Below are positions 3,054 to 25,256 of a stretch of DNA of 32,435 nt, one piece after another. Made by a program: the position numbers and the translations under genes. The DNA lies in the IMG/VR virus record IMGVR_UViG_3300032331_000980, positions 1-32,435 of that record, one strand, 5' to 3'. The notes below the pieces were generated by a model. It worked only from the letters and a program-made list of their open reading frames with translations. It had not been told where the DNA came from and did no database searches. The stretch comes from a virus. Numbering within the stretch: position 1 is the first letter of the stretch; every line of letters begins with the position of its first letter.

Positions 3054-5411
3054 ATGGCGGAAGAAATAATAGGGTTAAAGGTTGAATTAGATACCAGCGG
3101 TGCGAGTGCGCCAATGGCATCTTTAAAATCACAGATAAAAGAGGCTACCAATGAATTGGTAAACTTTACAGGCAAATTTGGTGCGACATCCAAAGAGGCT
3201 ATCAATGCAGCTAAAAGAGTAGCGGAGTTGAAGGATAGAATGGGTGATGCAAAGCAAATGGTAGATGCCTTCAATCCTGATGCAAAGTTCAACGCATTAA
3301 CGCAATCTATAAGTGGTGCTGTAGCTGGGTTTTCAGCGGTGCAGGGTGCAATGGGTTTATTAGGTGTGGAAAGTGAAAGCACACAAAAGGCATTATTAAA
3401 GGTGCAAAGTGCAATGGCACTATCTCAAGGGTTAAGCACTTTTTTAGATAGTGGACTAGAAGGTTTTAGAAACTTAGGGCGTCAAATTGCAGGTCCACTA
3501 ATTGACTCGTTTAAATCATTTAGCGCAGCGGCACGAACTGCAATTGCAACTACTGGTATTGGTTTATTGGTTATTGCAATAGGACTTATTGCAGCTAATT
3601 GGGATAAGATAAAAACTGCAATGAATGGAGTGAGTGAAGAACAAAAAAAGTTAAATGCGTTAGCACAAAAAAATGTTGAAGCTGAAGAAAATAAGCTAAA
3701 AAAAATAAAAGATTCTGAAAATATCTACAAACTTCAAGGCAAAAGTGAAAGAGAGATATTAAAAATGAAACAAGACCAGGTTAGGGCTACTATAGATGAA
3801 AAAGAGAAAAAATTAGAAGGTTTAATTATAACCAATAAAGCTTCTTTAGATGCAGCTACAAATAATAAAAGAATATTAACTAGTGTACTTGATATAGTAC
3901 AAAAACCATTAACATTATTATTAGATGGAATAGATTTAATTGGTAAAGCATTTGGTAAAAACTTTAATTTAAAAGGGCAATTATTAAGTTTTGAAGCTAA
4001 CTTATTATTTGACCCTGAACAAGTAAAAAAAGATAGTGATGCAGCTGTAAAGAATTTGGAGCAGGAATTATTAAATCTTAAAAATGAAAGAGCAGGTTAT
4101 GAATTATCTATAAAAGATATTGATAAAAAATCTGCAGATGATGCTGAAAAAAAACAAAAAGATGCGCAAGAAAAAAGAAAACAACTTGCAAAAGATGCTT
4201 ATAATAAACAATTAGAAGATTTAAAATTAAGTTTAAATGAAGAAAATAAAACTTTTGCAGAACGTAGAAAATTAGTTTTAGAAAATACAAAATTAACTGC
4301 AGAAGATAGAAAAAAATTAAATAAAGAAATTGATGATGATGAAAAGAAATACAATGAAGAACATCAAAAAAAATTAGCAGAAATAAATAAAAAATATGAT
4401 GCCGAAAGATTAGATAGAGAAGCGGATACAGCGGTAAAAAAAGAGGAACTAGATTACCAAAGAAGATTAACTGAAATAAATAGTTTAGTAGCAACTACAA
4501 CCGAAAAAAATATTTTAATTGAAAAATTAAATGCAGAGCATTTAGTTAGAATGGAAGCTGCTAAAAAAACAGATGATGAAAAAGCACTTGAATTAAGTAA
4601 AAAATATGATACTGAAAAAGCAAATAGAGAGGCAGATACTTATGTTAAGAAAGAGGAATTAGATTATCAAAGAAGGTTAGCAGAAATAAATAGTTTAGCA
4701 ACTAGTGAAACGCAAAAATTTGCATTAATAGAAAAGTTAGATGCCGAGCATAAAGCTAGATTGATAGAGGCTACAAAAAAAGATGCAGCCACAGCGTCAG
4801 CATTAAGACAAGCAGCTATAAATGCAGATATTGATACTTACATGCAAGCTGCAACTTCTATCAATAGCATACTATCAAAATCTAATGCAAATCAATTAGC
4901 AGATTTAGAAGCAAATTCACAGGCTAGGATTGCAGCTGCAGGTGGTAATAAAGAAGCTATTTTAGCTATTGAAAATGAAACAGCTATTGAAAAAAACAGG
5001 TTACAAAATGAGCAAGTAAAAAGAGAAAAACTATTTGCCATTGCAGAGGCAATTATTAATACTTATAAGGCGGCCGCGCAAGTATTTGCAAGACCAGCAC
5101 CAGGCGATCCTGTAACATCTTTAGGAATAAAGATAGCATCAATGGTGGCTGCAGTTGCAAGTGGAATAGCTAATGTAATGGCAATTAGAAAAGTACCATT
5201 GCCATCAGGCGGTGGCGGTGGTGGTGATGTATCAGGTGGTTCAGCACCTAACTCTCCAATGGGTACGGTATTTAATACAATAACCAAACTAAATAAAGAT
5301 AGTATTGATAAGATTAACGATAAGGCAGTAAAGGCTTATGTAGTTGAAACAGATATTAACAACGGACAAAAAAGAATAGAAAGAATATTAATTAACACAA
5401 AATTTAAGTAA
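3054..5411 (+). CDS. Tail tape measure protein
   Basis: A 785-residue protein. The N-terminal part is helical and Ala/Ser-rich. One hydrophobic segment runs from about residue 163 to 183 (start IATTGIGLLV). A long, highly charged coiled coil covers about residues 200-600, followed by a Gly-rich stretch at about 717-727 and a C-terminal tail. This order is typical of tape measure proteins, which set tail length and reach the cell envelope during DNA injection. The common rule of about 1.5 angstrom of tail per residue would give a tail of roughly 115-120 nm. Residues from 446 onward contain a tandem 70-residue repeat. It follows two tail genes and precedes the prohead protease by one base. Confidence 0.85.
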   Translation: MAEEIIGLKVELDTSGASAPMASLKSQIKEATNELVNFTGKFGATSKEAINAAKRVAELKDRMGDAKQMVDAFNPDAKFNALTQSISGAVAGFSAVQGAMGLLGVESESTQKALLKVQSAMALSQGLSTFLDSGLEGFRNLGRQIAGPLIDSFKSFSAAARTAIATTGIGLLVIAIGLIAANWDKIKTAMNGVSEEQKKLNALAQKNVEAEENKLKKIKDSENIYKLQGKSEREILKMKQDQVRATIDEKEKKLEGLIITNKASLDAATNNKRILTSVLDIVQKPLTLLLDGIDLIGKAFGKNFNLKGQLLSFEANLLFDPEQVKKDSDAAVKNLEQELLNLKNERAGYELSIKDIDKKSADDAEKKQKDAQEKRKQLAKDAYNKQLEDLKLSLNEENKTFAERRKLVLENTKLTAEDRKKLNKEIDDDEKKYNEEHQKKLAEINKKYDAERLDREADTAVKKEELDYQRRLTEINSLVATTTEKNILIEKLNAEHLVRMEAAKKTDDEKALELSKKYDTEKANREADTYVKKEELDYQRRLAEINSLATSETQKFALIEKLDAEHKARLIEATKKDAATASALRQAAINADIDTYMQAATSINSILSKSNANQLADLEANSQARIAAAGGNKEAILAIENETAIEKNRLQNEQVKREKLFAIAEAIINTYKAAAQVFARPAPGDPVTSLGIKIASMVAAVASGIANVMAIRKVPLPSGGGGGGDVSGGSAPNSPMGTVFNTITKLNKDSIDKINDKAVKAYVVETDINNGQKRIERILINTKFK
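4389..4808 (+). repeat. Tandem 70-codon repeat in the tape measure gene
   Basis: Two 210-bp units begin at 4389 and 4599. Both start KKYD and share READT, VKKEELDYQRRL, EINSL and the later IEKL-AEH pattern. The first unit is followed directly by the second in frame. This fits an in-frame duplication within the coiled coil. Confidence 0.85.
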
Positions 5412-5412
5412 G

Positions 5413-5994
5413 ATGGAATTACCACTATACGAGTTGAAACTCGATGAACAAACAAATGAATTTGGAGTAGATATAATTAGCCTAGTAGATGCACCTGCAA
5501 TCGAAAAGAATTACCTAATGTTTGAAAGCCATAAAGTAGAATGGACTGCAAACAATGAGAGGATGATAGTTAGCGGCCCTGCAATGATACCAGATAAGCT
5601 AATTTATCGGAATGATGCCAATGGTGAATACAATACTGTAATTAGTAAAGATACGATTGAGGCGGTTGTACTTCGCTATATGGAACAAGGTAACCAAAGC
5701 AATGTAAATCTAATGCACGGCTCAATGGCAAAGGATGTATTTGTATTTGAAAGCTTTATAAGTGATAGCCAAAGAGGCATAGCACCAATGGCAGGCTACG
5801 AAGATTTGCCAGATGGTACTTGGTTTGTTTCAATGAAAGTAAATAATACAGATGTATGGCAGCAAGTAAAAGAAGGAAAGCTAAAAGGTTTTAGTATTGA
5901 GGGATTTTTTGGGATGGAGAAAAAAGAAGTGAATGCTGAAATGAGTGTAGATAGTGCATTTGATGAAATATTGGAACTAGTAAAGGAAATATAA
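5413..5994 (+). CDS. Prohead protease, XkdF-like
   Basis: A 193-residue protein. It shows the pattern I associate with XkdF-type prohead proteases: GPAMIPDKLIYR (about residues 55-66), NLMHGSMAKDVFVFES (98-113), then GTWFVSMKV and KGFSIEGFF near residue 165. The conserved His at about 101 and the Ser of GFSIEG are the visible candidate catalytic positions of this protease fold. Its role would be cleavage of scaffold and capsid proteins during head maturation. It follows the tape measure and precedes scaffold-like and major capsid genes, which fits. Confidence 0.75.
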   Translation: MELPLYELKLDEQTNEFGVDIISLVDAPAIEKNYLMFESHKVEWTANNERMIVSGPAMIPDKLIYRNDANGEYNTVISKDTIEAVVLRYMEQGNQSNVNLMHGSMAKDVFVFESFISDSQRGIAPMAGYEDLPDGTWFVSMKVNNTDVWQQVKEGKLKGFSIEGFFGMEKKEVNAEMSVDSAFDEILELVKEI

Positions 5995-23137: not shown

Positions 23138-23476
23138 ATGACAAACGAAAAAATTAAAACACTTGCAGACGGATATTATGCTGGTAATGCAGACTGGTTA
23201 AACAATGAACAAGAACAAGATACTAAAGTAGGTTGGAGGCAAGGGTTTGCATACGCATTTCGCCAATTTGCTGTTAGCGGTAGTGTTTTGAAGGTCAAAC
23301 TGCACGAATATGGATATAGCTGTGGTGATGGATGTTGCTATAATTACGGAACAATTACAACCGTTAATGATATTGAATTGCCTTGTCATAACCAAGATGC
23401 TGAAACAATACTTAGGCAAGTATTAGAGCATTTGGGTTATAATGTTGAAATTGATTATAGTGATGATGTCGAGTAA
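23138..23476 (+). CDS. Chimeric ORF: phage N-terminus fused to a cassette-borne Cys-rich protein
   Basis: A 112-residue ORF. Codons 1-45 (MTNEKIKTLADGYYAGNADW ...) lie before the predicted cassette boundary. From codon 46 (base 23273, GTTAGCGG) the sequence belongs to cassette A. The cassette part looks like a complete small protein starting at TTG 23288: MKVKLHEYGYSCGDGCCYNYG, ending with an LGYNVEID region and an acidic tail. The Cys-Gly-Asp-Gly-Cys-Cys motif may bind metal. The stop at 23474-23476 lies 6 bases before the attC-like site, as in integron cassettes. The fusion may be expressed, or only the cassette gene. Confidence 0.6.
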   Translation: MTNEKIKTLADGYYAGNADWLNNEQEQDTKVGWRQGFAYAFRQFAVSGSVLKVKLHEYGYSCGDGCCYNYGTITTVNDIELPCHNQDAETILRQVLEHLGYNVEIDYSDDVE

Positions 23477-23482
23477 CATTAC

Positions 23483-23575
23483 CGCTAACGGTTTCGGGCT
23501 TGGCGAAGGTGGGCTTGTAGGATGCTCAAATTTAGCAGGATGTGTCTGCCCACTTTTGCCAAACCCGTGTTATGT
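23483..23575 (+). other. attC-like recombination site 1
   Basis: The R''-like box CGCTAAC (23483-23489) and R'-like box GTTATGT (23569-23575) bound a 20-bp imperfect stem: 23495-23514 (CGGGCTTGGCGAAGGTGGGC) with 23548-23567, one mismatch and two G-T pairs, around a 33-nt loop. The spacer between outer box and stem is longer on the left (5 nt) than on the right (1 nt), an asymmetry typical of attC sites. Confidence 0.78.
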
Positions 23576-23622
23576 GTCAGTTTGTTTTTAAATTTTTAGC
23601 GTGGGAAATAATAAACGAAAAT

Positions 23623-24240
23623 ATGAAATTAGGAAAATTTGATTGTTCTACTGGGTTAATAAACGTGCTTTATTCAGACCCTATTAAAAATATATCAGTA
23701 AGAACTTCAACTATAAAAGATGTTCTTTTGATTGATAAACTGCAAAAGGAAAACTCCTATGCGGTGGGATTTATTCAAAAGACTATTTGGGATAAATATG
23801 TTTTTGGTGGGGAACGCAATTTTGTTGTATTTATTTGTGAGGCTAATAATGATGCAGTAGGATATGTTTTAATAACTCCGGGCAAAGGTGCTTACAAGTA
23901 TGGAAAAATACAACAAATTGCAGTTAGAAACGATGCAAGAAGGTTATATTATGGAACTGCTTTATTAGATGTGTGTAGGCAATTTTGCGAACAATTCCAT
24001 AGGGTAGGATTTACTTTAAGATGCCGACAAGATTTAGAAAGTAATAACTTTTGGAAGGCATTAGGATTTGAAAACTATGCAGTATGGGAAAAGGGGAAAA
24101 TTAACCACGTTGGATTTAAAGCAAGTGATGATATTAACCTTTGGAAAATTGAGTTGAACAAAAACATAATTACTTTATTTGACGATATTAATGAAGCGGA
24201 TGTTCAATTATTCTCTAAGGGTGCGTGGGAAAAAATTTAA
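23623..24240 (+). CDS. GNAT-family acetyltransferase on cassette B
   Basis: A 205-residue protein from the ATG at 23623. The longer frame from 23542 is rejected because it starts inside the attC-like site. The GNAT core is visible: VGYVLITPGKGAYKYGKIQQ strands, then motif A region IAVRNDARRLYYGTALLDVC (acetyl-CoA pyrophosphate loop, slightly degenerate) and a late FWKALGFENYAVWEKGK segment. It should transfer an acetyl group from acetyl-CoA to an amine; the substrate is unknown. Its codons and the attC sites on both sides suggest origin in a bacterial integron rather than the phage. Confidence 0.75.
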   Translation: MKLGKFDCSTGLINVLYSDPIKNISVRTSTIKDVLLIDKLQKENSYAVGFIQKTIWDKYVFGGERNFVVFICEANNDAVGYVLITPGKGAYKYGKIQQIAVRNDARRLYYGTALLDVCRQFCEQFHRVGFTLRCRQDLESNNFWKALGFENYAVWEKGKINHVGFKASDDINLWKIELNKNIITLFDDINEADVQLFSKGAWEKI

Positions 24241-24251
24241 AAACAAATTGC

Positions 24252-24382
24252 AGATAACGTTTTGGGGCTTGTAGCAGTAGGGGACTTATAGCACTACTGT
24301 TCAATGCACCACTAAAGCTGATTAGAAGTACACAGCTAAATTAAAGCACTTCTGCCCCTATTGCTACAAGCCCTTGTTAGCA
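24252..24382 (+). other. attC-like recombination site 2
   Basis: R''-like AGATAAC (24252-24258) and R'-like GTTAGCA (24376-24382) bound a 19-bp stem: 24265-24283 (GGGCTTGTAGCAGTAGGGG) with 24355-24373, 18 Watson-Crick pairs and one G-T pair. The 71-nt loop holds an inner stem (AGAAGT 24325-24330 with ACTTCT 24348-24353). The left arm shares the AACGkTTTsGGGCTTG pattern with site 1. Confidence 0.8.
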
Positions 24383-24429
24383 GAAGTGGCGGTTAATTTA
24401 CAAGGGTATAATTTTAAAATTTAAACAAA

Positions 24430-24681
24430 ATGTCAAACAAAAAACAAGATTTATTAGACCAATTTGCAATGTCAGCATTAACAGCTTTAATCGCTAAAAT
24501 GCCATTTTATGACAGCAATGCAGAACACGGAAAAGCAATTGATGAAGATGAATTGCAAATCATTAAAAAGAACGTAACAGCAACAGCTTATGAGTACGCT
24601 GGATGGATGATGATTGCAAGAGAGGATAACAAAAAATGGCTGAAAGAAAACGAAGATGTTAATGCTGACTTCGGGTCGTAG
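24430..24681 (+). CDS. Unknown protein on cassette C
   Basis: An 83-residue protein starting MSNKKQDLLDQFAMSALTAL. It is acidic and helical; NVTATAYEYAGWMMIARED (about residues 48-66) resembles small proteins I recall from Bacteroidota phages and cassettes, with no known activity. Its stop codon overlaps the first base of the inverted arm GCCATTTCTGCTAAC, as expected when a gene fills its cassette. The start lies 53 bases into the cassette. Confidence 0.6.
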   Translation: MSNKKQDLLDQFAMSALTALIAKMPFYDSNAEHGKAIDEDELQIIKKNVTATAYEYAGWMMIAREDNKKWLKENEDVNADFGS

Positions 24682-24695
24682 CCATTTCTGCTAAC
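24681..24695 (+). other. Truncated third attC-like site (R'' arm only)
   Basis: GCCATTTCTGCTAAC complements the start of cassette C (24376-24390) at 14 of 15 positions, so it is the gene-proximal arm of the cassette's own site. The GGGCTTG-type stem and the right arm that should follow are absent; TCACTTATATACGC follows instead. Confidence 0.7.
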
Positions 24696-24731
24696 TCACT
24701 TATATACGCAATAAAACAAACATAACTACCT

Positions 24732-25256
24732 ATGTATCAATTTGTAAAGATAACCATTGATGACCGTATCTATTTTTTTAGTAAACCGCATCATCTATTC
24801 CATGATGGTAAATTTTATAAAGCATTTGTACATGGTAGCCAATTAGCATGGAAAATAAAAAATAAAATAATCACATATAAAAAACTTAAAATTATGATAA
24901 CAATAGAAAAAATAACCGAGATAGTTGCAAAGACAGCTAATGCACCAATTGAAGAAATATTAGGCAAAAGTAGGAAGCGAGAATTTGTACAACCGAGATT
25001 TGTAGCAATGAAGCTGGCAAAGGAGTTTACCAAAGATAGCCTAGTTAAGATTGGTAATTACTTTGGCGGTAGAGATCACACCACTACCATCCATGCCATC
25101 CAAACTATCAATGATTATATTGATATACGAGCCAACCAACCTATGGAAAGCGCATTGTATTTTACTGCAAAAGATAATTTGCATAAGTACCTACTAGCTA
25201 CTAATGGAATTTCGCAAAGTATTTTATTAACACCACATTCAATACCAAAATGTTAA
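24732..25256 (+). CDS. DnaA domain IV-like DNA-binding protein
   Basis: A 174-residue ORF. From the internal ATG at 24894 (120 residues) the sequence fits DnaA domain IV, the part that binds DnaA boxes: EEILGKSRKREFVQPRFVAM, then the signature GGRDHTTTIHA (58-68 of the short form). There is no AAA+ ATPase domain. The 54-codon extension from 24732 reads like a separate small domain (MYQFVKITIDDRIYFFSKPH ... KIKNKIITYKK), but the bases at 24850-24893 are leader-like, so 24894 may be the true start. A role at the phage origin, or competition with host DnaA, is plausible. Confidence 0.75.
   Translation: MYQFVKITIDDRIYFFSKPHHLFHDGKFYKAFVHGSQLAWKIKNKIITYKKLKIMITIEKITEIVAKTANAPIEEILGKSRKREFVQPRFVAMKLAKEFTKDSLVKIGNYFGGRDHTTTIHAIQTINDYIDIRANQPMESALYFTAKDNLHKYLLATNGISQSILLTPHSIPKC

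Follow-up and report, generated by a model that had tools for sequence, protein, structure and literature searches.

A probable attI-bearing, integron-like cassette platform in a phage genome without a matching integrase gene

Why should a small tailed phage carry, between flanks that it holds in common with its relatives, a row of short genes whose ends are complementary to one another? The window, by which we mean the whole 32,435-nucleotide stretch of DNA analyzed here, is a closed 32.4-kb tailed-phage genome with a 123-bp terminal repeat, which encodes a terminase, an endolysin, an Erf-like annealing protein and an exonuclease and has no DNA similarity to catalogued phages. Three small genes occupy positions 23273-24695, each in a cassette that starts with GTT, finishes with AAC and has complementary ends. 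We propose that 23273-24711 is probably an integron-like cassette platform without an integrase of its own, bearing an attI site and recombined in trans. The locus comprises the following features:

23250-23272, plus strand: possible half attC at the distal array junction
23273-23489, plus strand: body of cassette A, at the distal end of the array; ORF at about 23288-23476
23481-23577, plus strand: attC-like site A (97 bp), between cassettes A and B
23569-24258, plus strand: body of cassette B; GNAT acetyltransferase ORF at about 23623-24240
24250-24384, plus strand: attC-like site B (135 bp), between cassettes B and C
24376-24695, plus strand: body of cassette C, attI-proximal; ORF at 24430-24681 (83 aa)
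24692-24711, minus strand: attI-like site, the fixed right boundary of the array
24696-24893, plus strand: conserved phage flank past attI, reaching a gene with a DnaA C-terminal domain

The preliminary description of this DNA had rested its case on complementary cassette ends, and these are borne out: the ends of cassette A (23273-23287 and 23475-23489) and of cassette C (24376-24390 and 24681-24695) are each complementary at 14 of 15 positions, and those of cassette B, which match at only 10 of 15 without gaps, extend as a 20-nt inverted repeat at 95% (23578-23597 and 24231-24250). The best of 5275 other GTT...AAC pairs lying 150-800 bp apart in the window reaches 12 of 15; end complementarity is above chance for cassettes A and C, and for cassette B it is so through the long extension. 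The product of cassette B matches Pfam Acetyltransf_1 (1.8e-9), while the 83-aa ORF of cassette C gave no family match in Pfam, and a search for viral relatives of this cassette found none.

The two attC-like stems described around the GNAT gene both fold better than shuffled sequences, with z-scores of -4.4 (plus strand) and -3.7 (minus strand) for site A and of -2.6 and -2.5 for site B. A covariance model built on 45 sites with 22 base pairs (R1) scores site A at 86.6 bits and site B at 62.5 bits, values that are partly given by construction as both window sites are in the model, and finds nothing comparable over the rest of the window; RNAalifold alone on the R1 alignment returned 18 pairs, 14 of them with compensatory changes. 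Independently of any model, the 80-bp core of site A is 98.75% identical both to a Bacteroidota chromosome contig (L033) and to a viral contig (L067). A control model (R2), small and built on 14 attC sites (12 class 1, 2 from a cyanobacterial plasmid), gave no match at either window site even with filters off, R1 gave none on class 1 arrays, and Rfam holds no relevant match for the window. CALINs are recognized by two or more attC sites in a 4-kb span that has no integrase; the locus has such sites with R1 and lacks them with the small class 1 model. The canonical R-box consensus is RYYYAAC ... GTTRRRY; the window boxes keep the AAC and GTT cores, and GTTATGT, GTTAGCA and CGCTAAC deviate from the RRRY and RYYY parts.

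Full attC-like sites number only two in the window, with none complete to the left of cassette A or to the right of cassette C. At the distal junction, a right arm, TTTCGCCAATTTGCTG before GTTAGCGG, was recognized by eye only as a possible half attC; it resembles the right arm of the attC family alignment and was missed by R1. An open frame at 23138-23476 crosses from phage DNA over this distal boundary into cassette A and is possibly a fused gene.

Such hairpins might be regulatory structures, such as terminators or mRNA processing sites between small genes, with the matching ends a coincidence, and their strong stems and intergenic position would fit this. The end complementarity of A and C beats all 5275 background pairs, however, and it is not confined to this locus. 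A pattern derived from the hairpins retrieved 26 stretches in species-representative genomes, almost all of them Bacteroidota, as well as over 119 from viral contigs, and complementary cassette ends recur in these viral and chromosomal stretches, not in shuffled controls. Where cassettes are shared between contigs, their limits coincide with the complementary ends. We regard a purely regulatory role as extremely improbable.

If the locus is a cassette array, where does it begin? To address this point, we used a weight matrix trained solely on 21 host attI sites beside chromosomal integrases, whose positions had been picked by end complementarity and by eye, and ran it on both window strands. 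Its best hit lies at 24695 on the minus strand with 23.5 bits, against 12.8 bits for the runner-up and a maximum of 19.3 bits in 40 shuffled windows. The sequence there, TTGCGTATATAAGTGA followed by GTTA with the crossover G/TT at 24695, has its closest host counterpart in L228 (ttgcatatataagtga followed by GTTAGCGG), where 15 of the 16 upstream bases equal those of the phage TTGCGTATATAAGTGA. In other viral arrays, a motif above 15 bits was found at the predicted side and strand in 9 of 53 cases, as against 1 of 159 control regions. As the fixed boundary carries a host-type attI motif, the array starts at 24695 and runs leftward. So read, site A is the attC of cassette B itself and site B that of cassette C, and the cassette genes run against the array, which gives them the same orientation as the phage genes. 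The opposite, forward reading, with attI on the left, was discarded, given the attI boundary on the right and the gain of a cassette there in a relative (L015). The attI at 24692-24711 on the minus strand, the leftward direction, the non-canonical nature of the system and an explanation of the missing outer stems were all absent from the preliminary description.

Relatives of the phage, gathered through searches with the terminase and the DnaA-domain protein and 88-97% identical at those proteins, have both flanks in common with the window and differ in the cargo genes at the array spot. These include an N6/N4 methyltransferase (L015), a C5 methyltransferase (L004), a PAPS-reductase-like protein below the Pfam cutoff (L012), a weak match to the restriction-alleviation protein Lar (L016) and further unknowns. 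The entire region is absent from L007. In L004, L006, L012, L015 and L016 the array always ends in AAC followed by T(C/T)ACTTATA(T/G)ACGCAATAAA, the matrix scores 22.9-23.2 bits at the same place, and the flank alignments, at 91-94% identity, start at 24696; the matrix has no match in L007. L004 also holds a second attI copy (18.3 bits) with a methyltransferase cassette at 4740-5684, interrupting the DnaA-domain gene region, and a tRNA-like sequence, seen by eye, beside the variable region at about 3724-3829.

Two of these relatives form a natural before/after pair. Positions 3007-3132 of L006 and 1-126 of L015 are 100% identical up to AAC, after which L015 carries 923 bp extra before homology restarts at L006 3130 and L015 1050, so that one methyltransferase cassette with one hairpin has been gained exactly at the fixed junction, a whole-cassette insertion at attI with crossover at G/TT. 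At the level of sequence comparison, then, there is a single-cassette difference at a fixed site, the identity of shared cassettes ends at GTT...AAC, and the attI motif is shared with integrase-bearing loci, with no such integrase in the window phage. The site-specific insertion of cassettes suggested earlier is supported by this pair and by the end-to-end sharing of cassettes A and B, and the exactness of the L015 insertion also speaks against the regulatory reading of the hairpins.

The same comparisons bear on whether the array might be a passive block of cassettes, a CALIN, that spreads between related phages by homologous recombination, its attI-like sequence an inert leftover. The phage encodes both an Erf-like annealing protein and an exonuclease, the long flanks common to related phages would allow homologous exchange, and phage-borne CALINs are known (PMC9892861); we count the possible spread of arrays between phages through the Erf-like protein among the points against our own interpretation. 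Such exchange does not readily account for L015 being L006 plus exactly one cassette at the attI junction, for cassettes A and B occurring in contigs without homologous flanks, or for an attI sequence kept in five relatives and present twice in L004. We consider a passive block unlikely, and favor an attI-bearing platform that is recombined in trans.

Cassettes A and B are common to other viral contigs, not to the sampled bacterial genomes. A viral contig (L119/G240) has a copy of cassette A with 99.1% identity that spans precisely its 217 bp and sits at that contig's own attI, between flanks unrelated to the window. For cassette B, a copy with 90.8% identity covers precisely 23568-24258 in the phage L262, in which both terminal boxes are altered relative to the window in a matched way, a separate hairpin lies to the left of the cassette, and the adjoining genes are phage replication genes. 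At least 92 viral relatives of the cassette B protein were retrieved, but a search of 396 Bacteroidota genomes, run without a positive control, returned neither its gene nor the array; a host origin of the GNAT cassette, considered as a candidate, is unsupported by these genomes. Across L262-L341, the GNAT of cassette B appears as a widespread phage gene, and L263-L265 have close copies as ordinary genes outside cassettes, L263 retaining part of a cassette end. In the simple cassette model, a cassette moves together with its stem. The stems beside the shared cassettes A and B differ in L262 and G240, which, like the lack of a full stem to the left of cassette A, counts against our interpretation; it may be that stems are swapped, or that cassettes do not always keep theirs.

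The preliminary description had proposed looking for such sites in Bacteroidota chromosomes, and matching ones do lie there in chromosomal arrays. Sites of the R1 family are present in 76 of 198 Bacteroidota genomes and form large chromosomal arrays beside integrases (for instance at L227, L228, L230 and L236) that standard integron surveys have apparently overlooked. Bacteroidota-type sites also turned up in archaeon-binned contigs (L043 and L046, from a record titled Candidatus Nitrosotalea), probably through a binning error. The site-bearing genomes encode tyrosine recombinases that match TIGR02249, the integron-integrase model, in two pieces, with about positions 181-237 missing, and the 13 Bacteroidota integrases that we aligned are without the IntI-specific insertion seen in a true IntI (L194). 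Together with the failure of the class 1 model to find either window site, this tells against reading the locus as a canonical integron. In host contigs, strong R1 sites share one strand and are located 3' of the integrase (exceptions: L192 and G181), and the first cassette comes after a motif such as ttgcatatataagtga followed by GTT, usually about 65-130 bp past the integrase stop codon. A close integrase (>430 bits) is present in 20 of the 198 genomes, 19 of which also have R1 sites (Fisher p 4e-8).

Complete versions of the system also appear in viral contigs. Six of these (5, 59, 62, 127, 170 and 310 kb) carry the gene for a relative of the host-clade integrases next to their own array, whose start lies 50-86 bp 5' of that gene's start codon. 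These contigs (G240, also L119/L260/L352; G242, L257; G232, L258; G231, L259; G241, L261; and L049) carry apparent complete integrons, with an integrase devoid of the IntI domain and several to about ten attC-like sites per array; some of the contigs are above 100 kb. An initial view of the integrases in large viral contigs as unrelated to arrays, based on inspection of the 3' side only, was overturned by the junction and array on the 5' side. On the host attI matrix the viral junctions score from 17.5 (G240) down to 5.9 bits, with no motif in G231, so that phage attI sequences differ in part from those of hosts. A Gp23-type capsid gene is present in two of the six contigs. For the others, the two markers tried gave no confirmation of a phage, and one of these markers, Terminase_6C, is uninformative here as it missed the window's own terminase too.

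In a midpoint-rooted tree of limited sampling, 26 host integrases form one clade (support 100/98), and the phage integrases, in five rows (100/99), form its sister (joint support 97/90), with the sixth phage integrase (G231) outside the phage clade; host and phage clades stand apart from XerC, XerD and canonical IntI. This placement matters for a further candidate mechanism, in which another recombinase, for example host XerC/XerD, moves modules with inverted ends at a dif-like site at 24692-24711. That site does have two inverted half-sites (GCGTATA ... TTANNNGC), a common tyrosine-recombinase layout, and Xer proteins are present in all hosts checked; yet hosts have this type of site next to the separate integrase clade, viral contigs have it next to related integrases, and in the tree the array-linked integrases branch apart from XerC and XerD. 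We judge Xer-driven movement to be very unlikely.

As previously claimed for the closed genome, the profile of array-linked integrases has no match in the window, nor does it have one in seven relatives. We infer that a recombinase would act in trans, on attI and attC, with the protein donated by another genome, most plausibly a member of the tyrosine recombinase family of Bacteroidota and their phages, which is integron-integrase-like but without the diagnostic extra domain. The earlier attribution of the insertions to a host integrase names one candidate source but not the sole one, since six viral contigs encode a related integrase as well; the enzyme could be supplied by the host chromosome or by a co-infecting phage that carries the complete system. 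In the proposed model, the attI-like site at 24692-24711 (minus strand) would take up circular cassettes singly, by site-specific recombination at G/TT, and new cassettes would enter beside attI and shift older ones to the left, making C the newest, B (GNAT) intermediate and A the oldest. By analogy with IntI, recombination may proceed through folded single strands. A benefit of the cassettes to the phage is conceivable in view of the DNA methyltransferases among the relatives' cassettes.

How does this compare with known systems? Like integrons (IntI-attI-attC; class 1 and sedentary chromosomal), the system has single cassettes entering at an attI that adjoins an integrase gene, with crossover at G/TT, hairpin recombination sites, many-cassette arrays, and toxin-antitoxin, acetyltransferase and methyltransferase cargo. 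Unlike them, its integrases are without the IntI-specific domain, the class 1 attC model and R1 do not find each other's sites, host attI lies 3' of the integrase, and the window phage has attI without an integrase. Phage CALINs, including one in Polaribacter phage P12002L (Qi et al. 2023, PMC9892861), likewise have attC sites and cassettes without an integrase in phage genomes and methyltransferase cargo, but their sites were found with canonical models, and one published P12002L site is active with IntI1. R1 finds nothing significant in P12002L (L250), and we rejected its attC sites as members of the same family; there may thus be two or more kinds of cassette site among Bacteroidota phages. 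In the portions of the open-access literature searched, no earlier report was found of a phage that has an attI-like site but no integrase, together with a before/after insertion pair.

Treponema chromosomal integrons resemble the host loci here in that transcription of the integrase runs toward attI, but they belong to another phylum and are treated as ordinary intI systems, with no phage platform described in the excerpted text (PMC3607928). An integron-like subgroup of simple tyrosine recombinases has been delineated, and the insertion called essential for integron function (PMC8138268); in the sections of that source consulted, members without the insertion are not tied to cassette arrays. 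For Bacteroidetes proper, the only complete integron reported with IntegronFinder 2.0 is that of Salinibacter (PMC9024848), and set against the R1 family in more than a third of the Bacteroidota genomes here, a large system seems to have escaped standard models. Overall, an integron-like system of Bacteroidota and their phages appears to fail the defining tests of canonical integrons, though working like one.

We think it likely that these loci represent an undescribed, widespread integron class in Bacteroidota and their phages, with an integrase without the "essential" domain, in which small phages would be attI-only and supplied in trans and cassettes would circulate between unrelated phages. 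It is similarly likely, within that interpretation, that large phages hold complete copies with their own sister integrase clade, and that the pool includes anti-restriction genes. Phages would thereby have a defined route to gain or swap single genes, DNA methyltransferases included, and the need for the IntI-specific domain in cassette recombination would become a testable question.
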